IMG/VR virus record: IMGVR_UViG_3300030099_002697
Location: 1-35,679 of that record
Direction: 5' to 3' (one strand)
DNA from: a virus
Length of the DNA stretch: 35,679 bases
The notes under the pieces are model-generated. The model did no database searches, was not told the origin of the DNA, and saw only the letters and a list, made by a program, of their open reading frames with translations. The stretch's first letter is position 1. The number at the start of each line of letters is the position of its first letter. Positions 2,248-35,679 of this stretch are shown here, piece by piece. The position numbers and the translations under genes were made by a program.

Positions 2248-2496
2248 ATGATAACAATGTTATCCATATACGTCCCACTGATTTTTACGCTACACGCATC
2301 ACATGAACTATATAATTTTAATAACCCCAGAATCAACCCCAGAGGTACATACGTCCTACTACAATGGGAGCCAGATGATTTTTACGCAGATGTACATAAT
2401 ATTCATAGACCATACTTAAAGGCTAAAGCAGATAACTACTTTAAAAGAAAAGCAAGGATAAAATATTGGCAAAGAAAACAGCTAGGCAGAGAGTAG
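2248..2496 (+). CDS. Hypothetical protein (82 aa), doubtful start
   Basis: An open frame from ATG 2248 that ends inside the start region of the NinG-like gene. The N-terminus is hydrophobic (about residues 3-16), followed by an N/P-rich middle and a basic helical end with YFKRKARIKYWQRK. No SD precedes the ATG, and an alternative in-frame ATG follows at 2257. The RBS of the next gene (AAGGA, 2454-2458) lies within it. The bases near 2273-2295 and 2374-2390 share the string GATTTTTACGC. I cannot assign a function and the N-terminal part may not be translated. Confidence 0.4.
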   Translation: MITMLSIYVPLIFTLHASHELYNFNNPRINPRGTYVLLQWEPDDFYADVHNIHRPYLKAKADNYFKRKARIKYWQRKQLGRE

Positions 2497-2864
2497 TAAA
2501 AAGACTGGATGATGTTACATCCAAATATATTAGAGAGCGTGATGCAAAGTGCGTCCAATGCCAGACCACTGAAAACCTCACAAACGGGCACGTCTTCTCC
2601 AGAAGGTCGTACTCAACGAGGTGGGACATATCTAAGGATGGTAATTGTCATACTCAGTGCTGGGGCTGTAACTTTAAGCATTCTAAAGATAACTACGATT
2701 ATTTTAAATGGTATGTAGATACATTCTCCAAGGATACGTTTGAGAACCTACGCTTTAGATACAAAGAGACTAAGAAGTATACTACAATAGAATTAGAGGA
2801 GTTGTATGAGGAACTAACCTTAGCATATAAGGAGTTACTAAGTGAAAACCAGACTAACCAATAA
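2466..2864 (+). CDS. NinG/Rap-like recombination protein
   Basis: 132 residues with the layout of phage lambda NinG (Rap), a protein that acts on branched recombination intermediates. A C29-x2-C32 knuckle is followed by NGHVFSRRSYSTRWD, which holds H42 and basic residues. Then comes CHTQCWGCNFKHS with C61, H62, C65, C68 and H72, giving an HNH-like zinc-bound nuclease core. The C-terminal half is a charged helix bundle. The start is TTG 2466, chosen because AAGGA (2454-2458) lies at good distance and the MAKKTARQR N-terminus suits the family. It is shorter than lambda NinG (about 200 residues) mainly at the N-terminus. It probably cooperates with the Rad52-like protein and the exonuclease. Confidence 0.8.
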   Translation: MAKKTARQRVVKRLDDVTSKYIRERDAKCVQCQTTENLTNGHVFSRRSYSTRWDISKDGNCHTQCWGCNFKHSKDNYDYFKWYVDTFSKDTFENLRFRYKETKKYTTIELEELYEELTLAYKELLSENQTNQ

Positions 2865-3504: not shown

Positions 3505-3651
3505 TTATTGTCGCTCATCTATACACTTAACACATAGAGGTAAATCAAAACCATCATCTTCAGTTTCTAGTATAGGATACCAATCTACATCATCTTTAAG
3601 CTCTTCACAATCAAAGCATCTTTCAAAAGCAGGAAGTATAGTTAAAGCCAT
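3505..3651 (-). CDS. Small acidic zinc-knuckle protein (48 aa)
   Basis: The leftward ORF encodes a protein with C12-x2-C15 (RCFDCE) and C40-x2-C43 (PLCVKC), a two-knuckle zinc site, separated by a strongly acidic loop (EETEDD-like composition). It is the last gene of the leftward block. Its ATG overlaps the stop of the gene before it (TAATG on the minus strand), and GGGGG precedes it. The acidic character and tiny size fit a protein that mimics nucleic acid or binds a host factor, but this is inference. The intergenic stretch up to the terminator holds nothing else. Confidence 0.65.
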   Translation of the reverse strand: MALTILPAFERCFDCEELKDDVDWYPILETEDDGFDLPLCVKCIDERQ

Positions 3652-3845
3652 TACTTACCCCCTTCCACTAGTATGATATTAACTTTACAGCTTTCTGGAT
3701 TATGAGTATCAAACTCTAAGCCATGTTCAAAGGCTAGCTTATATAGTTTGATTTGCTCTAAATCATAATCAGTATCTGGTACCATTGTGATTTCTGTAAC
3801 TCCACTTGTTGGTTCTTTTCTTAGTATTTGTATTGCGTATTTCAT
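3651..3845 (-). CDS. Hypothetical protein (64 aa)
   Basis: The ATG at 3845 is preceded by AAAGGAGTGGC and overlaps the upstream stop, so it is translationally coupled to the ribbon-helix-helix gene. The protein is acidic, with an N-terminal beta strand (MKYAIQIL), a middle helix and a final strand (CKVNIILVEGG). This is consistent with a small alpha/beta fold. No family is recognised. Confidence 0.65.
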   Translation of the reverse strand: MKYAIQILRKEPTSGVTEITMVPDTDYDLEQIKLYKLAFEHGLEFDTHNPESCKVNIILVEGGK

Positions 3846-3979
3846 TATGCCACTCCTTTTAAGTAATTATGTATTATAAAGTTAATGTGCTTACCTACAC
3901 TACGATGGTTCTTTTTAGCATCTTTATCAAGAGCTTTTTTAATTTCTAAGTCCATCATTACATTTACATTTTTTTTCAT
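3845..3979 (-). CDS. Ribbon-helix-helix (Arc/MetJ-type) regulator (44 aa)
   Basis: The protein begins MKKNVNVMMDLEIKKALDK and continues with DAKKNHRSVGKHINFIIHNYL. This is the ribbon-helix-helix layout: a short basic beta strand (residues 2-8), helix A (9-23), a turn, and helix B (27-40). Its 44 residues are close to the minimum for phage Arc-like repressors, which bind operator half-sites as dimers of dimers. It is the only clear DNA-binding regulator in the genome, so it is the natural candidate to act at the palindromes in the divergent control region, or on its own promoter. Start and stop overlap the neighbours. Confidence 0.7.
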   Translation of the reverse strand: MKKNVNVMMDLEIKKALDKDAKKNHRSVGKHINFIIHNYLKGVA

Positions 3980-4102
3980 TTAGTTCTCCAATTCAGTTAA
4001 ATGTTCATCTACATTTTTAGCAACATAATTAGGAATATCAGATAAATATTCTTTTGTGCCATCTTCCCAAGTTATTTTTATAGTCCAATGTATTATTTTC
4101 AT
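3980..4102 (-). CDS. Hypothetical protein (40 aa)
   Basis: The short frame MKIIHWTIKITWEDGTKEYL, then SDIPNYVAKNVDEHLTELEN, looks like a beta hairpin followed by a helix. The ATG overlaps the stop of the preceding gene and AAAGGA lies just upstream. It is one of a run of six coupled tiny genes on the minus strand. Its unbroken coupling on both sides is the main evidence that it is real. No known family. Confidence 0.55.
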   Translation of the reverse strand: MKIIHWTIKITWEDGTKEYLSDIPNYVAKNVDEHLTELEN

Positions 4103-4251: not shown

Positions 4252-4255
4252 TTCA

Positions 4256-4456
4256 CTACTCCTTTTCTGTTATTATTTTAATTAAGCAATTTGATGTGAT
4301 TCTTCCCTTATGAAAATCATCTTCAAATTCTTTTGTATCTGTGTATACTTTACCATAACATTCAGCATTTAATTCTGTAAGTAGGTCGTATTTACTGTCA
4401 ATTTGCTCAAAACAATCATCACTACATTCATCTAAGTCTATCATTAATATTTTCAT
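4256..4456 (-). CDS. Hypothetical acidic protein (66 aa)
   Basis: The start is taken as the second ATG (4456) because GGAG lies 8 bases before it and it overlaps the stop of the membrane peptide gene (ATGA). An in-frame ATG at 4468 has no RBS. The protein starts MKILMIDLDECSDDCFEQID, is strongly acidic and carries four cysteines without a clear zinc pattern. The last codons contain the RBS of the next gene. No family recognised. Confidence 0.65.
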   Translation of the reverse strand: MKILMIDLDECSDDCFEQIDSKYDLLTELNAECYGKVYTDTKEFEDDFHKGRITSNCLIKIITEKE

Positions 4457-4741: not shown

Positions 4742-4762
4742 TTTGCTACTCCTTTTGTTTTA

Positions 4763-4888: not shown

Positions 4889-5839
4889 TTATTTTAGTAT
4901 GAAATCACTAGCTTTTTCAGCTCTGCCACCAGCCCATATAATCCAACTAGGCTCACTCTTTAACTTCTTAGCCCAGCCCTTGCAATAGGCAGATGTATTC
5001 TCCATAACTCTCTCAGATTCTAATCCAGCTTTATAGCATAGTATTGCACTACCAATTTCAGCAACAAGCTCTTCCTTAGAATACTCATGACTACCAAAGT
5101 AATTACTCTTTGTTAAGGTGTCTCTATTCAATCTGCTTTCATGCCCAGTGCTGTGAACCATTTCATGAAACATGGTGCTGTAAAAATGCTGTTTGCCATC
5201 CTCTTCATTTTGACCAACTTGCAACGCTTTTTCAACAGATTGCTCGATAGTAGGAACCACAATCATGTCATCAGATGGAGCATAGTAAGCTCTATCACCA
5301 AGCTTTTCAGTAATCTTAAGAGTTTTGTTTTTAGATTTATAGTTAGAAACTATATCATCTGCAACCTTGATTCTATCAACTGGCTCTGGCTTTTCTGGAG
5401 TTTCTGGCATCTCAATACCCTCGCATTGCTCGATATTGAATACAGTAAAAGTTTTAAGGATAGGTCTATTGTCGGTTACTGGAACCCCATCATCATCTAA
5501 TATCACATTACCAGTAGAGTCTTTAACCTCATACTCAAAGAACTTCCAGAATACAACTGGAGTACCCTTCTCACCACGCTTAACTGAACCACCAAGCTGT
5601 TTAGCTCCATTGTAGGTAACCCATGAATTGAACTGATAACCCTTAGTCATCATAACCATAGTCAAGATGATTGTGTTAGAACCATGATACTCTTTTTTTG
5701 AATTGTAGTTATGAGGGGCACCACCAATCTCTGAACTAGCCCAAGGCTTAATCCAAGGGCAGATATCTTTGTTAAGTCCATCAACAATGATGTCGGTTAC
5801 TTTCTTACAGATGTCTTGTGTTGTTTGTCTCTTTTTCAT
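4889..5839 (-). CDS. ardC: ArdC-like antirestriction protein
   Basis: 316 residues. The N-terminal domain (about 1-130) matches ArdC_N/DUF1738, a single-stranded DNA-binding domain: PWIKPWA, then P-x-N-x-x-x-x-x-x-Y-x-G-x-N, W-x-TY, and LGGSVKRGEKGTPVVFWKF. The C-terminal domain is a zincin metallopeptidase with H225-E-x-x-H229 in FHEMVHSTGHESRLNR and the downstream EELVAEIGSA that supplies a conserved acidic region. ArdC proteins of plasmids and phages protect incoming DNA from restriction. The start ATG has AAGGAGTAGCAAA before it. It is the first gene of the leftward block, as expected for an anti-defence gene expressed early. The size is normal for the family and all key residues are present. 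Confidence 0.9.
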   Translation of the reverse strand: MKKRQTTQDICKKVTDIIVDGLNKDICPWIKPWASSEIGGAPHNYNSKKEYHGSNTIILTMVMMTKGYQFNSWVTYNGAKQLGGSVKRGEKGTPVVFWKFFEYEVKDSTGNVILDDDGVPVTDNRPILKTFTVFNIEQCEGIEMPETPEKPEPVDRIKVADDIVSNYKSKNKTLKITEKLGDRAYYAPSDDMIVVPTIEQSVEKALQVGQNEEDGKQHFYSTMFHEMVHSTGHESRLNRDTLTKSNYFGSHEYSKEELVAEIGSAILCYKAGLESERVMENTSAYCKGWAKKLKSEPSWIIWAGGRAEKASDFILK

Positions 5840-5866
5840 TTTTGCTACTCCTTACTTTGTTAATGT

Positions 5867-7370: not shown

Positions 7371-8796
7371 TATGGAAGCCCCATGAAGGTGCTCAGACGT
7401 TTGCATTACAAGTTAGTGATGTATATGAATGCCTTTATGGTGGAGCTTAATTACCCCCATCATTAAGTTGGTGGGGGATTGATTTGCAAGAGGTGGAGGT
7501 AAGACAGATTGTGGAATGGCGTGGCTGTTAAGAGCTACAGACAATCCAGACGCTAGAATGCTAGTAATAAGAAGAAATGCTGATGACCTTGCAGACTGGG
7601 TAGATAGAGCACATAAGATGTACCCTCATGCAAAGGTAACTGGGAAACCAGCAACAATAAAGTTTCCCTCTGGAGCAATAATAAGATGTGGGCATTTAAA
7701 AGATGAGAGTGCCTACACAAAGTATCAGGGACATGAGTACCAAAGAATATTAATAGAGGAGCTCACCCAGATACCATCAGAAGAAAGCTATTTGAAATTG
7801 ATATCAAGTTGTAGAAGTACAGTAAAGGGACTAGAGCCTAAGGTGTTCTGTACAGCAAATCCAGGTGGTAAAGGTCATCAATGGGTAAAAAGACGTTTCA
7901 TACAAGGTCATAAACCAGAGGTGGCGTTTAAAGAGGGTAACTCAAGGTATAGAATGTATATACCAGCGACAGTAGACAATAACCCTACCCTCATGGAGAA
8001 TGACCCAGATTACGTTGATTTCCTAGAGAATCTACCAGAGCCATTACGCTCAGCGTGGAGACATGGAGACTGGGATATATTTGCTGGTCAGTATTTTACT
8101 GAATGGAACCCTAAGATGCACGTCATACCAGAGGATGTAGCTAAGAAGTTCGGATATGGTCAGAGCTTTAATAAAAAGTACATCGGTATAGACTGGGGCT
8201 TTAGTGCACCATTTGCGTGTATATGGATAGAGGTAACACCAAACAATAAAGTATTCTGCTATAGGGAGCTATATGGAACAGAGAAGCACCCTTCACAGTG
8301 GGGACAAGAGATACTAAATTTGACTGGAGATGAAGAGATATTTATGAGTCTAGGTGACCCCTCAATGTGGGCTAAGAATCCTATGAGCTGGAACAACCCA
8401 GCAACACCCATGTACACAGACAAGTCTATAGCAACAGCGTTAGGTCAGTTTGTACCAAACCTAGTACCAGCAAATAACTCTAGGGTAATAGGGTGGAGTA
8501 ACATGGCACAGCTAATGCACTATAAGAAGGGAGTATTGCCAAATTTCTTTATTATAGATGGGACGTGTCCAAACTTAGCAAGGACGCTACCAGAGATGAT
8601 AAGAGATGATAAGAACCCAGAGGATATAGACACTACGCTTGAAGACCATATCTGTGATGCAGTGAGGTACAGCTTAACACATATACAAGCACCTCCACAG
8701 CAACCAGCTAAGAAGCCAATGCTACAGCAACAGATAGAAAAATTATTAGAGTTTGAAGAAAACGATGACACAATAGATTTTAGGGGAATGAATTGA
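7370..8796 (+). CDS. terL: Terminase large subunit, coding sequence interrupted by a 41-nt gap in the P-loop
   Basis: This is the DNA-packaging motor: ATPase plus nuclease. Reading from 7370, the frame gives WKPHEGAQTFAL, then DVYECLYGGA, and stops at TAA 7448. From 7489 another frame gives RGGGKTDCGMAWLL and runs to 8796. Joined, the P-loop reads GGA-RGGGKT. Further motifs are Walker B ILIEE, the coupling motif CTANPGG, and RNase H-like nuclease acids in IGIDWGFS, SLGDPSMW and EDHICDAVRYS. The joined protein has about 460 residues, normal for the family. The frame 7516-8796 alone (426 aa) lacks the P-loop and cannot work. No standard start codon exists in the first frame: ATG 7372, behind GAAGGAG, is in another frame and would need a +1 shift after four codons. 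See the separate entry for the gap. Confidence 0.85.
7448..7488 (+). other. Candidate translational bypass element (coding gap) inside terL
   Basis: The 41 bases start with TAA directly after the alanine codon GCT (7445-7447) and end with GCA (7486-7488), another alanine codon, followed by AGA for the conserved arginine. Inside is a hairpin: CCCCCATCA (7454-7462) pairs with TGGTGGGGG (7469-7477) over a 6-base loop, nine pairs with one G-U. GGGGGA lies 8 bases before the landing codon and could act like an SD. All frames are closed: TAA 7448, TAA 7464 and TGA 7480. A stop after the takeoff codon, a hairpin and synonymous takeoff/landing codons are the hallmarks of T4 gene 60 bypassing. A short insertion or an excised RNA is the alternative. 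Confidence 0.6.
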
Positions 8797-10976
8797 TAAA
8801 CAATTATAAAGCACAGAGAAACGTAAGAGCAGAGCTCGGAGGAGCAGTAGACCTAGGAGAGCCAGTATCCTTGTACATTAAAGAGGATGAGATTAAATTC
8901 TCTTCTAAGAATCTAGCTACTAATGGCAAGTTTCAAGATGGAACTGTAACACCATTCACAACAGGTACTGGTTCTGTCCAGATGGATGCAGTAGAGTTAG
9001 CAACCAATCCAGTATCTGGAAGAACATCTCTTAGATTGCAAGTAGGAGACCCAAATGATGTAGCACATGGTGATTTTGATGTTAGCGTAGGAAAAACATA
9101 CAAATTTAGTTTTAACAGAACAATCCCTAATCACGATAATAACTCTAAATGCAAGTTTAAATTTGGAAATTTCGGTAATTCTCTTTTATATGGAGAAATA
9201 GTATCATTTACAAGTAATGCCACAACAGGAGTTTTTAGAGAATCTTTTATGTTTACAGCATCAGACGCACTTTTTAGATTTAGAATAGTAGAGTCTGGTA
9301 ATGATAATGACGCAGAAATATTTATAGACGATATACAGCTTTACGAGGTAGTAGACCACAGCTACAAGCTTATGGCAATAAACGACACAATCCCATCTAA
9401 AAGTGTAAACACAGAGGCAGTAGGGAGTGAATTAGCGTCTGAAGGTGACTTTGAAAACGCTGGTGCTGCTTGGTCAACCTCAAGTAGTACAATTACAGCA
9501 ACAGTAAACACTGGTGCTTTTGTATCTACGGGCGACTCTGATGGTGGCTTTAGTACATGTTCACAATCTGAAACTTTAATAGCAGGCAGAACCTATAAAT
9601 TACAATTTGATGTGACAGCAGTTACAGGGAGTCCAAGTGTTCATAATTATTGTGGAGCTTTAAATAAAAGTTTAGGAACAGCATCTGTTACAACATTTAC
9701 TGATACTTTTGTAGCTAGTTCATCTGATGCAAGTGAAGGTGGCATTGATGTAAGAACTATTTGTGCTAATGGTGAATCTGTAACTATAGATAATATATCT
9801 TTTAAGGAAGTTTTTGGATACGACTACTACAACGCACCAACGTATAAATTTGGCATTGTATCAAGCGTGTACGACCAATCTACTGGAGCAATGAAAACCT
9901 CAGGAGTGGCAGGAGATGAGGTAGATGTAACAGTACAAGGTGAGTGCACACTGCGTAAATCTGGAACTTATAATACAGTAGCAGGGTACGATATTTCTCA
10001 AATAACTGCAAGTGGTGATGCAATAGATAGAGGTGATGACCTTGCAAAGCCAAATCAAGTGGGAGTTATTGCAGAAACTAATGCAAATGAATCAGCAACC
10101 CAACCTATAATATTATTTCAAGGCGTAGAGTTTTCAGAGCATTTTGTACATAAAAACTCCCTACAGGTAATGGCTAAGTGTTCAGAGACAATAACAAAAT
10201 TTAGACCAGTGTCACTATATTTGGACTCAAATGGAGACCTACTTTGTAGACACGATGATATTCCAGCAGAGCTACCTGATGCAGACACAGACCACACAGG
10301 CGTTGACCCAGGTAAATGGGGCGTAGCCGAACTAGGTGGCGTAAGTGGAGACATAATCCCAGTTACAGTAGCAGGGAAGACTCATATTAATACATCTCAA
10401 AACAGAACAGCAGGTGGAATCATAACAAGGGTCAGAGAAAATGGAACAATGTCAGGAGAGTCTACAAATAATAATGCAGTTCCAAATGCTATAGGCACAG
10501 TTATGGAATCAGGAACTGGTGATGTTCCAATCACAATATTCGGTGGTACACCAATCGGAACCATTACAGACTGGAAACGGACTATTAAGGTAACAGCAAA
10601 GGCAAATGGAGCTATAACTCAATACTGCCCAGTTTCTCTGTATTTGGATGCAAATGGTAACTACAAATGTATATCTGATGACATTCCTAATACAAACACT
10701 AGTTTTGATAATGGAATATGGTGTGATTTTAGAAAATGGGGCGTAGCCCAAGAAACTGTCGCTGATGGAGAAAATGTAGAAATAATAGTGCAAGGACGTA
10801 CAAATGTTGTAGACGCTAGAGATAATGTAGATAGAGGAGAATTTGTTAGAAGAATTTCTTCTGATGGAACTGTATCTGGCATAGATGGAATAGGGTACGC
10901 ACTTTCATCTCTTGGTATAGTAGAAAAAGAATCAAGAATTAATGATGGAGCATATGGAGTAATAATAATATTTTAA
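8793..10976 (+). CDS. Multidomain surface or capsid-decoration protein with carbohydrate-binding-like domains (727 aa)
   Basis: TTG start overlapping the terL stop; AGGGGAA precedes it. The protein has three copies of a small beta unit marked by PVSLY (residues 24, 472, 613). Copies two and three share PVSLYLD-NG, DDIP, KWGVA and a VTVAGKT/IVQGRT strand over a 141-residue period. Between the first and second copies sit two jelly-roll domains, about 39-187 and 210-338. Each starts NGKF/EGDF, has a GKTYKFSF/GRTYKLQF strand and ends IDDIQLYE/IDNISFKE, the pattern of CBM4_9-like carbohydrate-binding modules. The repeats resemble phage decoration or head-fibre proteins, so it may display glycan-binding domains on the particle. 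Its place between terminase and portal is unusual. Tail-fibre function is the alternative. Confidence 0.65.
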   Translation: MINNYKAQRNVRAELGGAVDLGEPVSLYIKEDEIKFSSKNLATNGKFQDGTVTPFTTGTGSVQMDAVELATNPVSGRTSLRLQVGDPNDVAHGDFDVSVGKTYKFSFNRTIPNHDNNSKCKFKFGNFGNSLLYGEIVSFTSNATTGVFRESFMFTASDALFRFRIVESGNDNDAEIFIDDIQLYEVVDHSYKLMAINDTIPSKSVNTEAVGSELASEGDFENAGAAWSTSSSTITATVNTGAFVSTGDSDGGFSTCSQSETLIAGRTYKLQFDVTAVTGSPSVHNYCGALNKSLGTASVTTFTDTFVASSSDASEGGIDVRTICANGESVTIDNISFKEVFGYDYYNAPTYKFGIVSSVYDQSTGAMKTSGVAGDEVDVTVQGECTLRKSGTYNTVAGYDISQITASGDAIDRGDDLAKPNQVGVIAETNANESATQPIILFQGVEFSEHFVHKNSLQVMAKCSETITKFRPVSLYLDSNGDLLCRHDDIPAELPDADTDHTGVDPGKWGVAELGGVSGDIIPVTVAGKTHINTSQNRTAGGIITRVRENGTMSGESTNNNAVPNAIGTVMESGTGDVPITIFGGTPIGTITDWKRTIKVTAKANGAITQYCPVSLYLDANGNYKCISDDIPNTNTSFDNGIWCDFRKWGVAQETVADGENVEIIVQGRTNVVDARDNVDRGEFVRRISSDGTVSGIDGIGYALSSLGIVEKESRINDGAYGVIIIF

Positions 10977-23651: not shown

Positions 23652-26600
23652 TGGCTAACCCATTTAAGAATTTATTTAAAAGTAAATATACTACTTTTTA
23701 CTCAGTAGACGATTTAAACGAAGAACAAAAAAATTACATACGAGATGAGTATGCTAAATATCAAGCAAACCCAGAGCAGTTTGATGAACAGTATGGAACA
23801 GCTATAGTAGAGCTAGAGAATCGCTTACGAACCCCAGACCCACTCCTAAGAACATACGAATCTATAGAAGATGATACTACAGGAAGAGGAGCATTCCAAC
23901 AAAGAAGAACAGTAGGGGATAAAAGATTAAGAGTAGCAGCAGAAGCTAAAGAAAGAAAAAAACTTAAAACATCATACCTGTATGGACAAATAGAAGACTA
24001 CGAACCTAAAAATTCATTAACAGATGTACAATCAGTTATAGACCAAAAAGAAGACAAGGGTGAAATACAAAAAGCTGTACAAGAAATTGATAATAAAAAA
24101 AGACAATATTATGCAGAAAGATTTGGTTATGATTTATATGAAGACAATGGTAATCAAGCTTGGAAACAATGGATAGAAGCAGTAAGAGATGACCCTACAT
24201 TATTAGAAAAAGTTTTACAAAAGTCTCCAAAAATTACAGAAGCTGCACGAGAAAAACCTGGAATTGAAGAGAGTATGCTAAGAAAGAAATGGCAAAATTC
24301 TTTACAAAAAGGAACCCTGGAAGAAGATTTTTATGACATAGATATTAAAGATTTACAGCGAGCACAAGAAGAAAGAAATAAAAAAGTTTTTGGAGTAAGT
24401 GATGCCATAGCAGATATAAAAAATAATTGGGAAAAATATATTCCAGGTGGTGGATTTATAGAAGCTAAAGAACTACTTGATATATACGATTTATCAAAAA
24501 GATTTGATGAAAACCCTTCATCATTATCTGACCAAGAATTTAATCAATTAAAAAACTGGGTAGAATATCAAGATTTTCAAGGCACAGCTACATGGGGTGC
24601 ACAGCTTGTGCAAATGTTAGCACAAATGCCATCTTTTGGAATTGAAATAGCAGTGTCTGGTGGAGCAGTATCAATAGCGAGTAAAGCAGGTAGGGAAGCA
24701 ACGATTACTGCAATGCAAAAATATTTAAATGAAGGATTAAAAAGAAAAGTTAGAAATGAAGTAAAAGAAAGAACAGCATTAAAAGTAGCAAAAAGTGCAG
24801 GAACTAAAGTTGCTATTACTACAGTAGGAACATCATTATCTGGAGACGTAGAAGTAAATAAAATACGAAATTTAATGCCTGGATATGAACAGCTAGATGG
24901 AGAGCTATTTAAAATTTATAATGGCATGGATGAACTATCTGCTGAAAGACAAGCATATTGGGGAACATTTTTAGAGTTTGGTTCAGAGCAAATAGGTGGT
25001 GTTCCTGCAAGATTTGCAAAGTATATAAACAAAACTAAGGTAGGCAAATATACAGGAGAAAAGTTTTCTAAAGCTTGGAATAAATTAAATCTTCCTAACA
25101 AAGAATATTTAATGAGCACAGCAGCAATGAGAGCTTTTAAGAAAGTAAATGCAGGGGCAAGCAATAAAGATATAGAAAAAATATTTAGAACCTTTGGTTA
25201 TCATGGTGTAATTGAAGAGATGTTTGAAGAAAGAGCAGCAGACGCAGGAAGACATATTTTAAATCTTTTATCGACAACAAAAGATGAAAATGGGAAACCA
25301 TTAATAGAAGGATTTGAAAACAAAAATTGGCAATGGCAAAATCCTACATGGGAACAGCTATCATTAGAATTAGTAGCTTTTTCTGTCCCAGGCTTTGCAA
25401 AAAGAAAATTATCTCAAGCATACAACAATGTATACGAAGCTAAACAAAATAAAAAAATAGAAGATTTTAATAATAGAAATAAAGACTTTGGCGAAAAAAT
25501 TACAGAGGTAGAGCAAGAAGTAGAGAATAATGAAGTAAGACTTGGAGAGCTATCTAATAAAATTGAAGAGGGTGGCATTGAAAGCTTAGAGCAAGAAGAA
25601 ATTGTAGAAATTAAAACTATAATGGAGACTAAGCAAAAAAAGAATGTCCTTCAGTTTATGAGAGATTTAATTATAAGAGACCCATCATTAGAAAAAGAAG
25701 TTGACCTTGATATAAATTTAGACCAAGAAATGCAAAGAACAAAAGAGCAACTAGAGCAAGAAGGAGTAAGCTTAGAGGGAGAAGGACTATCAGGAGATAT
25801 TAAGTCTGTAAATGTTTTAGGCTTTACAATGTTTAATAATTTAAAGTTAAAATTTGGACTAAGAAAAGGTGCTGATTTAGATACAGCAATAGAAGAATAT
25901 TATGGAGCATATTACAGAGGTGGTCTCACAGAAGAACAAAGCGATACTTTTGAGCAGCATTACGATAGGTACGAATCTGATGAAAGTTATAGAATAGAAG
26001 TAAACGAATTTATTAATGATATGATGGAAGATATGGGTATGTCAGATAAAAAAATTGCTAATGTATCCCAAACCCTTACAGAGCAAGAATTATTTGAAAA
26101 AGAGGGAAAATCATACGAATATAAAAGCACACAAGAGGAAAGAGGTGGCATAGCTGACAAAACTTTTCAATTTATAAGCAATATGTTTAATAGGGCGTTT
26201 AAAAGCGTAAACGTCTCAGCAGGAGTAGCTGATATATATAAGCAGGTACAAAAAAGAAAAGAAAGAATTTCTACAGAGCGTGCACAAAAATTAGAAGCAA
26301 GAAGAGCAAAAAGGCAAGAACGTCAAGAAGAAAAACAGGCAAAGCAAGAAGCTAAAGAAACAGAAAAGCAAGAAAAACGTGAAGCTAAAGAAACTGCTAA
26401 AGAAGAGAAGCGTGAAGCTAAACAAGATAGAAAGCGTAAAAGGTTAAGACCTGGAGTTGAACCTACATTAGATGAAAGATTTGATGACGCACAATATGAA
26501 GAGGTTGCCGAGCCAGAGCTTGAAGACCTACCAGATATAGTACAACCCAAACCTAAAGAAATTAAGGAAAGAAAAAAACAAGCTAAAAAAATTAAGTCAA

Positions 26601-29600: not shown

Positions 29601-31324
29601 TATGGGAGGTTGGAGGTAGAAGATATTTACCTAGATACGACAAAGATGGAGAAGTAGCATTCTTTGACCCCATGACATTACAGGAGAACCAAGTACAAGC
29701 GTTTGTAGATGGTAAGCTAAAAGTAATAACAATAAATGATACAGGCTTATTAAACGCAATGAAAAATCTTGGTACAGGAACAACATTTAGATTTGCACAA
29801 AAATTTAATACATATTTAAGAGCGATTTACACATCATTTAACCCAGAGTTTTTAATAACAAACTTTGAAAGAGATATACAAACAGCTTTGATAAATATGC
29901 AAGCATCTACAGACATAAAAGTAACGTCTAAAATTATGAAAGATATTATGGGTGGTGCACCTATGAGAGCTATATACAGAACAAGGCGTGAAAAAGGCGA
30001 TGCAAAACTATCTATAAATCAAGAAAAGCTTAACGAATATAGAAAATACTACGCAGAGTATAAAAAAGAAGGTGGTGCTATGGGATGGGTAGCAACACAA
30101 TCTGTAGAGGATAAACTTAACGACCTTAAGAAAGTAATCGCAAGAGCACAAAGCTCTCGTAATCCAAAACAATTTTTCAGATATTTAGGTAAATGGGTAG
30201 AAGATATGAATATGACTGTAGAGCAAGCAGTCAGACTAGCAACATACGCTAACCTTAGAAAATCTGGATTGTCTAGAGCAGAAGCTGCAAAAATATCAAA
30301 GGAGCTTACAGTAAACTTTAATCAACAAGGTGAGATGGGTTCACTAATAAATACCCTATACCTATTTTCAAATGCAACCATCCAAGGTAATTACTTTTTA
30401 TATAAAGCTTTTAGGAAAAGCAAAAAAGTTAAAGCAGCATCAGCAGGAATAATACTAGCTACAGTAATACTCAATATATTTAACAGGATGAATGGTGGTG
30501 ATGATTGGGAAAAGTACAGCGATTATGAAAAAGATTTCCACTGGCTATACATACTTCCTAATGGTAATGTTGTAAAAATGAAGGTTCCATATGGCTATAA
30601 TATATTCCATGTGATGGGTAACGTAACAGAGGAAGCTATAGCAGGCAAGATAACATACGATAAAGCATTTACAAGAGTGTTAGAGTCTATTTTACACGCT
30701 GCTAGCCCAATAGGGTATGGAGAAGGATTTTCGCAGTATGTTCCAACAGTATTTGGATTAAAGCCTATGGTAGAAATATGGTTAAATGAAAACTTTATGG
30801 GTGGTAAAATAAGACCAGACCAACCTCATTTTGGTCAAAATAAACCAGATAGTCAACTATATTTTGATTCAATAAATCCTGATATAAAAGCAGTAACTAC
30901 TTGGGTAAATAAAGTAGCAGGGGGTTCTGAAACAGTTAGCCCCAGAGGCATAAGAAGATTGGCTGATGTAAGTCCAGAAACTTTAGAGCATATGTTAGAT
31001 ACATTTACAGGTGGTACTGGTAGATTTATAGAAAGAAGCTACAGGACAGGAAAACAACTCCTTCAAGGTAATGTTCCTCCACTTAAAGAAATACCATTTG
31101 CAAGAACATTTGTTTCAGAGCCAAGCAAATATACAATGCTATATAAAATGTATGATATGTACGAAGAGTCTGCTAGAACAATTTATACTAAAAATGAAAT
31201 AAAAGAATTTAAAAGATATTTATCAAGTAGCGTTAAAGATGGAGCTATAGAAAATAAAAAAGCTCAAAGAATTATGAACACATTTAATAAAAACCAACGT
31301 GAAGCAAGGGCATCAATGAAATGA
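23651..31324 (+). CDS. Giant polyvalent/internal virion protein with LPD38-like domain (2557 aa)
   Basis: One frame covers more than a fifth of the genome. Regions: a charged helical start (1-300); an amphipathic stretch (about 312-350); coiled coils (about 610-700); a K/E/R/A-rich low-complexity helix (874-940); an acidic-proline repeat twice (about 941-970 and 1130-1160, D-E-x-F-x-D...P-x-L-x-x-LP). Next comes a conserved-looking helical domain (about 1230-1600) with WYDDVYDEI and VVDRH. The segment FNPEFLITNFERDIQTALIN (about 2070) resembles LPD38, the large polyvalent protein associated domain; ILATVILNIF is a membrane-like segment. SYQL occurs at 1161 and 1734, before each new part. Phages inject such proteins with their DNA, like T7 gp16 or DarB. 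No catalytic site is certain. Confidence 0.7.
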   Translation: MANPFKNLFKSKYTTFYSVDDLNEEQKNYIRDEYAKYQANPEQFDEQYGTAIVELENRLRTPDPLLRTYESIEDDTTGRGAFQQRRTVGDKRLRVAAEAKERKKLKTSYLYGQIEDYEPKNSLTDVQSVIDQKEDKGEIQKAVQEIDNKKRQYYAERFGYDLYEDNGNQAWKQWIEAVRDDPTLLEKVLQKSPKITEAAREKPGIEESMLRKKWQNSLQKGTLEEDFYDIDIKDLQRAQEERNKKVFGVSDAIADIKNNWEKYIPGGGFIEAKELLDIYDLSKRFDENPSSLSDQEFNQLKNWVEYQDFQGTATWGAQLVQMLAQMPSFGIEIAVSGGAVSIASKAGREATITAMQKYLNEGLKRKVRNEVKERTALKVAKSAGTKVAITTVGTSLSGDVEVNKIRNLMPGYEQLDGELFKIYNGMDELSAERQAYWGTFLEFGSEQIGGVPARFAKYINKTKVGKYTGEKFSKAWNKLNLPNKEYLMSTAAMRAFKKVNAGASNKDIEKIFRTFGYHGVIEEMFEERAADAGRHILNLLSTTKDENGKPLIEGFENKNWQWQNPTWEQLSLELVAFSVPGFAKRKLSQAYNNVYEAKQNKKIEDFNNRNKDFGEKITEVEQEVENNEVRLGELSNKIEEGGIESLEQEEIVEIKTIMETKQKKNVLQFMRDLIIRDPSLEKEVDLDINLDQEMQRTKEQLEQEGVSLEGEGLSGDIKSVNVLGFTMFNNLKLKFGLRKGADLDTAIEEYYGAYYRGGLTEEQSDTFEQHYDRYESDESYRIEVNEFINDMMEDMGMSDKKIANVSQTLTEQELFEKEGKSYEYKSTQEERGGIADKTFQFISNMFNRAFKSVNVSAGVADIYKQVQKRKERISTERAQKLEARRAKRQERQEEKQAKQEAKETEKQEKREAKETAKEEKREAKQDRKRKRLRPGVEPTLDERFDDAQYEEVAEPELEDLPDIVQPKPKEIKERKKQAKKIKSKPRLFNFLNRRARKLARKKIETISPVAIREVKIKLEQQAPKQVIPDDPRQPLEILRDILGDEQFQELTGIYTGPIQQIETIEPRIIETLKEKFEPLPYESLDFFDVIPEKKQEQILKEVEKKVGKETIKPIRDLKKPKKPGARVTEDETFEDETYDDVPKPKLDKLPKIKKPKKKRPSYQLAAKRAYKYLPKDKKKQEDRLRKSTNRDESVAQPKNPPIVFENDDYRITIGNKSFEDWVKDTEKNLNPDEIAEAANWYDDVYDEIANVVPRKDVEKVFMSWLIAQKQESPIGAFGGTLKVKEEVELDIRRTKPKTGDYLKSGGLSDENMRRIFRDIPIEGGVGAKLLDFVDSAINSPTRFVVGNKPEGGAPYVVDRHTWNGRGYVSPVFLRYMEKAFGAEKLKNLQLDNTKDDKPSDTQYDQTSIWGNNLTKYLNKIKWGGKSNWTAPQIQAIDWTSIVKFKSNYGKVGGTIQDAIKENTAVINFETVFGEGTSYEKDYPEIKEFNYDDLAKFTNTTSDFINNVVDEVLRPLNIATIQQTGGWLDYNMAPSVTRQVLIPKDRIETAFSIIGYLSQQTKIMGFRPNPKGKDMALWFSSESFRDPKVADTFYRTMRERHPDIFQGYSSGEYEGSPALIVYQEVNAKGNAEKKKEILDNKIKEVVDLIESDITDYAKTLDNKIDYETQIVDMYAVENDWKENKNGESYLQRINETLGQEVQDRISGQYREEYKSILDQEIKQKQKAPKTKQKVSYQLKPLDQPAELPDETWSEIFKRKVVNRLSRLEKVTAEIGDVDEQTNAYLAAVLYEGKTEDRIDRFQKYIEDYIKRLKKAGFTVDDIGEYLYARHAEERNAKVKEDDPTFEGTGSGMTNEEADAILERFEGTKIQRFAREFDRKVIRERLNILKKGGLITQETYDFFTEESPYENYVPLKGTSEKKQGGTGTSGFSIVGKDIKRKRGRNSRADNPFVQALVDYELAIVRAEKNEVSSKFYLFTLENPSNLWEVGGRRYLPRYDKDGEVAFFDPMTLQENQVQAFVDGKLKVITINDTGLLNAMKNLGTGTTFRFAQKFNTYLRAIYTSFNPEFLITNFERDIQTALINMQASTDIKVTSKIMKDIMGGAPMRAIYRTRREKGDAKLSINQEKLNEYRKYYAEYKKEGGAMGWVATQSVEDKLNDLKKVIARAQSSRNPKQFFRYLGKWVEDMNMTVEQAVRLATYANLRKSGLSRAEAAKISKELTVNFNQQGEMGSLINTLYLFSNATIQGNYFLYKAFRKSKKVKAASAGIILATVILNIFNRMNGGDDWEKYSDYEKDFHWLYILPNGNVVKMKVPYGYNIFHVMGNVTEEAIAGKITYDKAFTRVLESILHAASPIGYGEGFSQYVPTVFGLKPMVEIWLNENFMGGKIRPDQPHFGQNKPDSQLYFDSINPDIKAVTTWVNKVAGGSETVSPRGIRRLADVSPETLEHMLDTFTGGTGRFIERSYRTGKQLLQGNVPPLKEIPFARTFVSEPSKYTMLYKMYDMYEESARTIYTKNEIKEFKRYLSSSVKDGAIENKKAQRIMNTFNKNQREARASMK

Positions 31325-32862: not shown

Positions 32863-32892
32863 AGATAAACAATTAACTTAGGAGTAGCGACT

Positions 32893-33474
32893 ATGAGTAA
32901 GATAGATTTATCTAAACTAACGCAACCAACACCAGAAGATAGGATTAAACACAGAACCCAAGCAGGGGTAAAGCTGTCGTACGTTGATGCACGATACTGC
33001 ATGGATGTACTTGATGATGTGGTAGGTCCTGAAAACTGGAGTGATGATTACAAAGAAGTAAAGGGTTTGTTGATGTGTGGTGTATCCATCAATGTTAATG
33101 GAGTTAAAGTAACAAAGTGGGACACTGGAACTGAGGCAAACTTTGAAGGAGAAAAGTCTATAGTTAGCGACTCATTTAAACGAGCGTGTGTTAAATGGGG
33201 TATAGCAAGGGATTTATACGATACTAAAAAGGCTGGGGGGAACGCTACTCCGAAACCACAAGGGGTTCCTAATGCCCCAGGTCCCCAGCCAGTCTCTCCA
33301 ACAGCCAAACAATCAGAATACATACTAGACTTTGGTAAGCATAGTGGCAAGTTTATCTCAGATGTTCCTCTTGATTATCTTAAATGGTTTCTAAACCAGA
33401 AGGACAATAAGAAGGATGAGAAAAAGTATAATGTATTTCTAAGTGAATACCACAAAAGAAAAACAAATGATTAA
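32893..33474 (+). CDS. Rad52-like single-strand annealing protein with ExoX-like C-terminal motif
   Basis: 193 residues, RBS AGGAG. The N-terminal domain (1-112) follows Rad52/Rad22-type annealing proteins: LSYVDARYCMDVLDDVVGPE, W49 in ENWS, a strand VSINVNG, then SDSFKRACVKWGIARDLYD with the conserved D-x-x-K-R-A and GIAR-x-LY. A P/G-rich linker (113-140) leads to a C-terminal segment (142-166) DFGKHSGKFISDVPLDYLKW. That matches the short motif at the C-terminus of exodeoxyribonuclease X-like proteins (DUF3820-like, FGKY-G-K). Such phage recombinases pair DNA strands for replication and repair. It is the first gene of the early operon and is followed by an exonuclease gene, the usual pair. 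Confidence 0.85.
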   Translation: MSKIDLSKLTQPTPEDRIKHRTQAGVKLSYVDARYCMDVLDDVVGPENWSDDYKEVKGLLMCGVSINVNGVKVTKWDTGTEANFEGEKSIVSDSFKRACVKWGIARDLYDTKKAGGNATPKPQGVPNAPGPQPVSPTAKQSEYILDFGKHSGKFISDVPLDYLKWFLNQKDNKKDEKKYNVFLSEYHKRKTND

Positions 33475-34201
33475 GCACGTTGAGGGAACAAGGTATGGTA
33501 GGTTCTATGACATTGGGGATGGTATATACGTCCCCAGTGTTACTACTGTTACTAGATATGGATGCCCCACACCTAATTACCTTCTAAAGTACATTGTGAA
33601 CAACTCAAAGGGTGACTATGATAAGTATTTAGAGACTAACTCTGAAGCACTTAGAGTAGGAACTGCTGTACATGATAGCTGTGAGAAGCTTTTGTTAGGT
33701 GAGGACTTACTTATTGAGAACGACCCAGAGGTGCAGAAAGGTGTGATAAGTTTTTGTAAGTGGTATCAAGAGTATTTACCTAAAGTTATATCAGTAGAAG
33801 AGGTACTATACGCTAAGAACCATAGACAAGGTAAGCTTATATGCCCATTTGCTGGTAGATGTGATTTAGTAGTAGAGATGAACGATGAGACATGGATGAT
33901 AGACCTAAAGACATCTAAGAGCTTAGAGGATTATACTTATGTTATTCAACTTAGTATGTACAAGATGCTATGGGATATAAGACATCCAGAGAGACCAATA
34001 GATAGACTGGCTTTAGTACATTGTAAAAAGAACTTTATGGGTGCACAGCCTACAGCAAAAACAAAGCTTTTTAAAGAGGTAGAGTTTGATGAGAAGTCTG
34101 TGAAGGCAGCTGTAAGATTTTTTTATAAGTACCAAGAAGCCTTTGACAATAAAGGGAACCTAAAAACACAACCAAAATTACAGACTGAATTTAAACTATA
34201 G
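33467..34201 (+). CDS. PD-(D/E)XK exonuclease, RecB/Cas4-like
   Basis: I take ATG 33467 (244 residues), which overlaps the previous stop; a GTG at 33443 would add 8 residues. Motifs: GTAVHDSCE with H70, then AGRCDLVVE with D133, then WMIDLKTSK with D146 and K148, and YVIQLSMYKML with Q161 and Y165. These are the RecB-family motif set of phage recombination exonucleases and Cas4. It should resect DNA ends for the annealing protein. No cysteine cluster for an Fe-S site is apparent. The next gene has its own GGAGTAGCG leader. Confidence 0.85.
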   Translation: MIKHVEGTRYGRFYDIGDGIYVPSVTTVTRYGCPTPNYLLKYIVNNSKGDYDKYLETNSEALRVGTAVHDSCEKLLLGEDLLIENDPEVQKGVISFCKWYQEYLPKVISVEEVLYAKNHRQGKLICPFAGRCDLVVEMNDETWMIDLKTSKSLEDYTYVIQLSMYKMLWDIRHPERPIDRLALVHCKKNFMGAQPTAKTKLFKEVEFDEKSVKAAVRFFYKYQEAFDNKGNLKTQPKLQTEFKL

Positions 34202-34209
34202 GAGTAGCG

Positions 34210-34893
34210 ATGAACGATTATATAGTAATACCAGGCAGTATTTTAAGGGATGATAACCTTACCTATATGCAGAAGCTTATATTGGCTAAAATCACTAATT
34301 TAGATAACGATAAGGGGTGTTTTGCAACCAACAAATACTTTGCAAGACTATTATCCACATCTATAAATAGTGTATCAAAGACAATAAACCAGTTAAAAAG
34401 TATGGGATTAATTGAAGTAGAAATAACAAACAATACAGACAGAAGTATAACCCTAGCCAAAAAGTGTAGGGGGGATGTCGTAAAAGTTGAGGGGGGGTCG
34501 CCTAAAAGTGTAGGGTCTTCCGATACTATTAATATAGATACTAATATAGATAATAATAAAATATATAAAAGTTTTATTGATTGGTGGAAATTATATGACA
34601 AAAAAGTTGGTAAGGATAAGGCTCTTAAGTTCTGGACTAAGAAGCTTAACCAGTCTCTAGTGGATGATATTATGAACCACACTAAGCGTTATGTAAAAGC
34701 TACTGATAAGCAGTACAGAAAAAATCCATACACTTACCTGTTTAATAATTCATGGGAAGATGAGATAATGAACGAGGTAGAGGAAGTAAAGTCAAATCCA
34801 ATAGAAGACCAAAAAAGATTAAGGCTATACAATCAAATGAACAATACAGACTTTCAATCGATAGAGGAAGCAAGAGCTCATGCCAATGGTTAA
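34210..34893 (+). CDS. Winged-helix replication initiation/replisome organiser protein (putative)
   Basis: 227 residues, RBS GGAGTAGCG immediately before the ATG. Residues 15-85 (LTYMQKLILAKITNLDNDKG, CFATNKYFARLLSTSINSVS) are a winged helix-turn-helix (HTH_36 type) found at the N-terminus of phage replication proteins. A linker (about 88-120) is rich in N, D and S. The C-terminal part (SFIDWWKLYDKKVGKDKALK, FWTKKLNQS, then NPYTYLFNNSWEDE) is the second, helical domain that such proteins use to contact the replisome or helicase. It should recognise the origin, possibly within this gene as in many phages, but I do not see clear iterons. The last 14 bases overlap the next gene. Confidence 0.75.
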   Translation: MNDYIVIPGSILRDDNLTYMQKLILAKITNLDNDKGCFATNKYFARLLSTSINSVSKTINQLKSMGLIEVEITNNTDRSITLAKKCRGDVVKVEGGSPKSVGSSDTINIDTNIDNNKIYKSFIDWWKLYDKKVGKDKALKFWTKKLNQSLVDDIMNHTKRYVKATDKQYRKNPYTYLFNNSWEDEIMNEVEEVKSNPIEDQKRLRLYNQMNNTDFQSIEEARAHANG

Positions 34894-35215
34894 ACTAGGT
34901 GATGCTATGCGACCACTTACAAGTAAGTTTGATATTGATTTAAGCTTGGGAGAAAAGTATGAAGACTCTCTTGCTCAGATATTAACCATATCCAAGATAG
35001 AAGTAAAAGCAGAAATAGATAAGTGGAGAGATACAGGTAACATAGCTATAGAGATTAGATGTAATGGAAAGCTATCTGGATTATCTGTAACTAAAGCAGA
35101 CCACTGGTGTCATGTTTTATCTTACAAGAATGAAATTAAAATGATATTAATATTCCCTATAGAAGAACTAAAAAGAATAGTTAGGGAGCTAGTAGACAAA
35201 AAGAAGCTAAGGTAG
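34880..35215 (+). CDS. Nuclease-like phage protein (PD-(D/E)XK-like), frameshifted in this copy
   Basis: The ORF as read has 111 residues. Motifs: FDIDLSLGEKYE (E25), KIEVKAE (E41 and K43), TGNIAIEI, and SGLSVTKADHW. These follow a phage family with a PD-(D/E)XK-like core, probably a nuclease or resolvase. Near 35195-35200 five A replace the six A of the left copy (95-100), so the tail is lost. With the missing base the frame would reach 35286 (135 residues), ending VPLDKLKGVA and TAG. That agrees with the left copy. The frameshift is a homopolymer sequencing error or a strain difference. The core residues remain. Confidence 0.7.
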   Translation: MPMVKLGDAMRPLTSKFDIDLSLGEKYEDSLAQILTISKIEVKAEIDKWRDTGNIAIEIRCNGKLSGLSVTKADHWCHVLSYKNEIKMILIFPIEELKRIVRELVDKKKLR

Positions 35216-35285
35216 TTATGGGTGGTGATAATAATAAATCACAGCTCGTACTGGTACCCTTAGATAAACTGAAAGGAGTAGCATA

Positions 35286-35555
35286 GTGGAGATTTATCAA
35301 ATAGTATATGGTTTTAGAGGTCATCATTACAATGAATATTTCATGACCCTAAAAGAAGCAGAGAAAGCTAAAGAAGAAATAGAGAGTAAGTACATTGATT
35401 TAATTGGATGGGTTGGGTTACTTGTTATAGAAGATGTTCCTAAAACGAAAAAAGGAATAGTAGTCCTCTTAAATAACAGCACGATGAGAAGAATAGATTT
35501 TATTAATCATTTAGAAGAATATGCTGAATCAACTAAAGAGAAAGGAGTAGCATGA
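35286..35555 (+). CDS. Hypothetical protein carried by the variable cassette (89 aa)
   Basis: GTG start just behind GGAGTAGCAT; the upstream stop TAG would overlap it. The protein has a beta-alpha start (EIYQIVYGFRGHHYNEYFMT, then LKEAEKAKEEIESKYIDL), a strand WVGLLVIEDV and a final helix. No family recognised. The gene is absent from the left copy of this region, so it is accessory. Its own last bases contain the RBS of the next gene, so cassette insertion does not disturb the operon. Confidence 0.65.
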   Translation: MEIYQIVYGFRGHHYNEYFMTLKEAEKAKEEIESKYIDLIGWVGLLVIEDVPKTKKGIVVLLNNSTMRRIDFINHLEEYAESTKEKGVA

Positions 35556-35650
35556 GATATAAAGATGAATTAGAGCTAATAATAATGATAGGAATACTGG
35601 TAGTAGGAACTATTTCACTTCTAATGTTAGTGAGGTCAGCATGGATATAA
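35552..35650 (+). CDS. Small single-pass membrane protein (right copy)
   Basis: 32 residues: MRYKDELELIIMIGILVVGT followed by ISLLMLVRSAWI. Same gene as 180-278 with three amino-acid changes (R to K at residue 4, A to S and V to L in the membrane segment). All changes are conservative, which suggests selection to keep the peptide. ATG overlaps the cassette gene stop; AAAGGAGTAGC precedes it. Confidence 0.6.
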   Translation: MRYKDELELIIMIGILVVGTISLLMLVRSAWI

Positions 35651-35679
35651 TGAAAAAAATTGAAGAGATATATCCAGAG
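35641..35679 (+). CDS. Start of the MazG/DUF1599-like gene (right copy, partial)
   Basis: The first 13 codons (MDIMKKIEEIYPE) are identical to those of the gene at 269-625. The window ends here, which closes the circle. Confidence 0.8.
   Translation, partial: MDIMKKIEEIYPE

Follow-up and report, generated by a model that had tools for sequence, protein, structure and literature searches.

The phage lineage analyzed here has an SU10-like portal, and its non-structural genes are strung together by a common joint, a short sequence that merges the last codons of the upstream gene, its stop codon, a Shine–Dalgarno site, and the start of the next gene. We favor, with some confidence, the interpretation that the joint links these genes, that a whole gene together with one joint can be gained, lost, or replaced, and that the exchange occurs by annealing at the joints. 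The window, by which we mean the whole 35,679-nucleotide stretch of viral DNA that was analyzed (IMG/VR record IMGVR_UViG_3300030099_002697), carries an occupied and an empty version of one such site at its two ends.

One locus in two states

Direct alignment of the contig ends showed that positions 1–306 correspond to 35105–35679 except for approximately 5 small changes and an extra unit, by which the tail copy is 269 bp longer than the head copy. The first-pass annotation, which had claimed a single locus in two states and a 269-bp cassette with an 89-aa gene flanked on both sides by a leader repeat, was correct on both counts. The unit (35272–35540, plus strand) consists of the left joint and the 89-aa gene, and both of its edges are formed by AAAGGAGTAGCAT (35272–35284 and 35541–35553), of which the head copy has a single instance (169–181); a pattern search of the whole window recovered this perfect 13-mer 3 times, namely at the 2 unit edges and in the empty-state copy. 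With the G that precedes each copy, the exact repeat is 14 bp (GAAAGGAGTAGCAT; left joint, 35271–35284; right joint, 35540–35553; single joint of the empty state, 168–181; all on the plus strand). An exact 14-bp repeat placed exactly at both edges of the unit is not due to chance, and part of it is expected, because the cassette gene and the gene that follows it begin with the same leader.

The cassette gene (35286–35555, plus strand) starts with GTG, and its product ends in KEKGVA. Upstream lies LEFT (34907–35287, plus strand), a gene encoding 126 aa with the C-terminus LDKLKGVA* in the relative L002; it is frameshifted in the tail copy of the window only (A6 to A5 near 35200) and open in both the head copy and L002. 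Downstream lies TM (35552–35650, plus strand; 180–278 in the head copy), the translation of which is a 32-aa protein with 1 hydrophobic stretch. Independent contigs display the same 2 arrangements: the site is occupied in 1 (L002/G001) and empty in 3 (G003, at both of its ends, G004, and G005). In addition, G006 lacks the following gene, TM, and L021 lacks the preceding gene, LEFT.

Relatives of the cassette gene were found in only 2 other viral contigs. In L002/G001, the cassette is located at the same place as in the window and the protein is 87% identical, whereas L003/G002 is a different phage, in which the gene neighbors a SpoVG-like gene and has no left joint. Relative to their G001 counterparts, the flanks in the window show 23 differences in 810 positions, and the cassette shows 26 in 256 (P = 8e-6); the cassette thus has a history separate from that of its flanks. 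Comparison of the protein with phage records and species genomes revealed no relatives, Pfam and PHROGs returned weak matches only, none above the cut-off, and the AlphaFold model has a mean pLDDT of 61. Rfam, tRNA, and RNA-folding searches yielded nothing, and no close isolate of this phage was found. The cassette (35272–35540) lacks both a terminator-like site and a promoter-like site above chance, and presumably depends on the operon; across 34100–35679, promoter-like sites likewise occur at chance level and terminator-like sites are absent.

Anatomy and distribution of the joint

The joint consists of AAAGGAGTAGC, a short spacer, and a start codon, the sequence being AAAGGAGTAGC(A/G) in the window lineage. 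In the window, it reads AAA GGA GTA GCA T-stop, thus providing both the tail KGVA* of the upstream protein and a ribosome-binding site, and it overlaps or abuts the next start. The core GGAGT(A/G)GC, with the start 8–13 bases from its first G, heads approximately 6–10 non-structural genes per genome, bearing out the earlier suggestion of a leader common to many early genes. Joints occur on both strands and in all members of the group (about 10 related contigs), and the clear cases all lie outside the structural block, a few of the listed matches being chance occurrences inside other genes. Within the window, joints with a gene are found at 3.8–5.9 kb and 32.9–35.6 kb, in addition to the head copy at 171. 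The multi-copy leader is absent from the sister lineage G011, and elsewhere only isolated matches were encountered; searches of viral contigs with exact 17- and 20-base leader patterns gave mostly unrelated single matches and 1 further member, L106. On the minus strand of G011 (30585–31316, within L065), a different leader, AAAGGAGAA(C/T)A, precedes several small genes.

The joint is read in 3 frames by the genes upstream of it, whose stop codon, where such a gene could be assigned, is usually found within or next to the joint. Counting only listed joints with an assigned upstream open reading frame (ORF), which excludes 25 with none, we found the tail KGVA* encoded by GGA GTA GCA T-stop in 18, KE* encoded by GAG TAG in 5, and RSSK* or similar encoded by AGG AGT AGC AAA TAA in 2, with a stop just ahead of the joint (TAG GAG) in 8. 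Approximately 17 unrelated protein families have joint-encoded tails. About 9 of these end in KGVA* (LEFT, the cassette, F1, F14, F20, F21, F27, F29, and a 94-aa ORF of L106), about 4 in KE*, and 4 in (G/S)SK*. The tails change with the junction within a single family: the zinc-ribbon protein ends in KPN* in G001 and G007 and in PIKE* in G009, and the F14 protein ends in CKKK* in G005 and in NKGVA* in G010. The C-terminal tail thus goes with the joint and not with the gene. No promoter, terminator, or hairpin was detected above chance at the joints tested, and their predicted RNA folding was not significant (z-scores 0.59, −0.75, and 0.02).

Gene exchange at joints among related contigs

The first-pass annotation had proposed looking in relatives for other genes swapped between such leaders, and swaps of this kind were indeed found, involving Mom, a C5-methyltransferase, a zinc-ribbon gene, and many small ORFs. 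Joint A (34198–34212, plus strand), between the exonuclease and replication-initiation genes, is empty in the window and holds a C5-methyltransferase in G004 (PF00145, 8e-26), Mom in L021 (PF25680, 1.6e-41), a zinc-ribbon ORF in G007 and at one end of G001, and a zinc-ribbon ORF together with a Mom-like ORF in G009. Joint C (AAAGGAGTGGCATAATG; 3847–3859, minus strand) is also empty in the window, with 1 cassette in G001 and 2 in tandem in G004. At joint D (4743–4755, minus strand), the sequence upstream of the gene is different in all 7 genomes that have the gene. Joint E (5842–5854, minus strand) heads the gene for an ArdC-type anti-restriction protein (4889–5839, minus strand), and G003 has an extra 43-aa ORF before ArdC. 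A further joint, of the variant GGAGTAGT (4253–4265, minus strand), heads a 49-aa ORF.

The joint heading the Rad52-like gene (32880–32892, plus strand) has no insertion in close relatives; in L106, a 2-gene unit with a terminator-like hairpin is located just upstream of the Rad52-like gene (3571–4095, minus strand, where 2 joint-headed ORFs are followed by the hairpin). The stretch ahead of the first of these L106 joints resembles that ahead of joint D in the window.

The same upstream gene faces different partners across a joint: EXO leads to REPI, a methyltransferase, or Mom; F1 to F3, F6, F20, or F29; and LEFT to TM, the cassette, or MAZ. Gene order can also be reversed, being F12–F11 in G001 and F11–F12 in G005, with F11 85% and F12 69% identical between the genomes. 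Elsewhere, G001, G003, and G004 have approximately 2.4 kb between the end of the terminase gene and the next gene, which the window lacks (8792–8797), and a 33-bp stretch inside a 2557-aa ORF (26470–26502) marks a 96-bp difference in length from G004.

Association of gene turnover with the joint

Clean insertions relative to the window were observed at 5 of 7 joints, compared with 2 of the 24 early gene starts that lie elsewhere (Fisher P = 0.002), and with insertions in both directions counted, at 5 of 7 versus 5 of 24 (P = 0.02), the starts and boundaries being hand-curated from the ORF list and the counts not independent, since the genomes are related. Neighboring joints also resemble each other more than non-neighboring ones, with 8.0 versus 6.3 of 13 variable positions alike (P = 0.0008) and, in the minus operon alone, exact runs of 13.0 versus 8.9 (P = 0.015), the joint pairs likewise not being independent. 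Upstream switching was not significantly more common at joints, more than 1 upstream class being present at 4 of 5 joints versus 9 of 19 other starts (P = 0.33). Furthermore, boundaries without a joint (625–1088, 3979, 3651, and 31321) also turn over genes, with repeats of 0–10 bp where measured. Turnover of genes can therefore proceed without the joint. The repeats at joints are mostly 13–36 bp long and partly built in, each gene bringing its own leader; neither the zinc-ribbon unit nor the loss of TM or LEFT is bounded on both sides by a long repeat. In the window, a phage SpoVG-like protein (1088–1366; PF04026, 3.4e-10) is encoded behind upstream sequences of 6 classes among 9 genomes, with no joint.

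These results divide the earlier claim that short homologous leaders allow genes to be gained and lost cleanly. The clean, gene-sized difference and the swaps at the leader in relatives stand; repeat homology as the driver and the Rad52-like protein as its helper are not established, given the absence of a significant excess of upstream switching and the turnover at leader-less boundaries.

Proposed mechanism of exchange

The shared stop, Shine–Dalgarno site, and start probably couple adjacent genes translationally, a role that fits the anatomy of the joint. Because many genes are preceded by the same joint, a whole gene with one joint could be added, lost, or replaced with its neighbors undisturbed. 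The 89-aa gene would be a unit of this kind, carried by one of the strains in the sampled population and missing from another. Exchange would proceed by annealing at shared joints of 13–20 bp, probably with the help of the phage Rad52-like protein and exonuclease, and selection would keep the clean products. Judged by gene content, annealing at the joints with the Rad52-like protein as the agent is plausible, because the window encodes a Rad52/Erf-like single-strand annealing protein (32893–33474, plus strand; PF04098, 1.4e-10; phrog_1097, 3.8e-26), a PD-(D/E)XK exonuclease (33443–34201, plus strand; phrog_298, 2.7e-29), and a NinG (lambda Rap)-like recombination protein (2466–2864, plus strand; PF05766, 1.8e-07), and no tyrosine integrase (PF00589) was found in any of 6 genomes, the control being positive in 14.

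A competing explanation, possible if rather doubtful, is that the joint is kept for expression alone, as a translation-coupling leader: genes would enter any boundary by illegitimate or ordinary recombination and would acquire the leader by selection or later conversion, leaving the repeats as a by-product. The turnover at boundaries with 0–10 bp repeats, the L003 cassette gene without a left joint, and the tails in 3 frames, which suit a stop/Shine–Dalgarno/start element, are in line with this explanation; the excess of clean insertions at joints, the greater similarity of neighboring joints, and the reversal of F11 and F12 argue against it. A stronger version of exchange by annealing, which we regard as unlikely, would make the joint a homology-directed cassette site, that is, an integrase-free array in which the phage annealing system adds, drops, and reorders accessory and anti-restriction genes with translation left intact.

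Origin of the two states on one contig

End overlaps were also found in 6 other long contigs (G001, G003, G004, G005, G009, and G011), at differing genome positions. In 5 of the 6, the overlap is imperfect (95%–99% identical), whereas that of G009 is identical over 98 bp, and in G001 one end has, exactly at joint A, a 139-bp zinc-ribbon ORF that the other end lacks. The window is thus probably a single consensus walked once around a genome that is polymorphic in the sample, with 2 coexisting strains joined by the assembler, and its ends are best read as representing these strains and not one phage caught in the act.

The recurrence of imperfect overlaps, including the 139-bp difference in G001, could also suggest that the assembler itself produced the 269-bp difference by joining 2 unrelated phages or by misplacing a repeat. 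We consider this very improbable: both arrangements are contiguous in independent contigs, at approximately 95% identity or more, and an artifact would account for the presence of both states on one contig, not for the states themselves. The assembly of unrelated phages, which the first-pass annotation had itself named as fatal to its proposal, is accordingly largely refuted by G001, G003, G004, and G005. Least credible of all is a terminal-redundancy heterozygote of the kind that arises in T-even phages, in which the 2 ends would derive from one packaged molecule after mixed infection; end overlaps at different genome positions are what a permuted genome would give, but the contigs are presumably consensus assemblies, and the 1%–5% differences between ends in relatives are explained just as well by mixed strains.

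Comparison with known systems

In lambdoid phages, morons are small accessory genes that some genomes carry, and others lack, at sites between conserved genes. Small genes likewise come and go between conserved genes here, and the L106 unit ends in a terminator-like hairpin, whereas the cassette at 35272–35540 has neither a terminator-like site nor a promoter-like site above chance. Integron gene cassettes are single-gene units arranged in arrays of variable order; the units described here share both properties and differ in that the 6 genomes lack a tyrosine integrase and the joint has no significant RNA fold.

The nearest described kind is the Start-Associated Sequences (SAS) of cluster K mycobacteriophages, short asymmetric repeats with an AGGAG core located just upstream of many non-structural gene starts; the genes behind them often belong to different families in different relatives, the upstream stop is sometimes inside the repeat, and about half of SAS have a 17-bp imperfect inverted repeat upstream (ESAS) (PMC3203893). 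Like SAS, the joint is located within a few bases upstream of starts, contains a Shine–Dalgarno core, and is restricted to non-structural genes. It differs in sequence, SAS being GGGATAGGAGCCC and the joint AAAGGAGTAGC(A/G), and in encoding the C-terminal tail of the upstream protein in 3 frames, in occurring on both strands, and in the exact pairs of empty and occupied sites. The authors of the SAS study already suggested these repeats as possible recombination targets (PMC3203893). A limited search of open-access papers turned up no account of joint-encoded C-terminal tails.

In T4-type phages, PeSL promoter–terminator motifs have been reported to mediate modular shuffling (Arbiol 2010 and Comeau 2014, as cited in PMC4503421). 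As characterized in that citing paper, PeSLs resemble the joint in being a repeated regulatory element between small genes, but combine an early promoter with a stem-loop, neither of which was detected above chance in the joints tested here. Rad52-like proteins recombine short diverged sequences, with a minimum of 30 bp for Red-beta (PMC3945230). The phage-borne system linked to such mosaicism has a putative counterpart here in the genes for the Rad52/Erf-like protein, exonuclease, and NinG/Rap-like protein, whereas most of the repeats (13–20 bp) are shorter than the Red-beta figure.

Implications

The locus provides a concrete natural case, with empty and occupied sites, of the gene-by-gene exchange of small phage genes, and the exchanged genes include those for the anti-restriction proteins Mom, C5-methyltransferase, and ArdC. 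The tails KGVA*, KE*, and (G/S)SK* offer a simple signature with which to screen other phages. Should the exchange be driven by the joint itself, the old question of mosaic boundaries, namely short shared sequences versus selection on random joins, would become testable.
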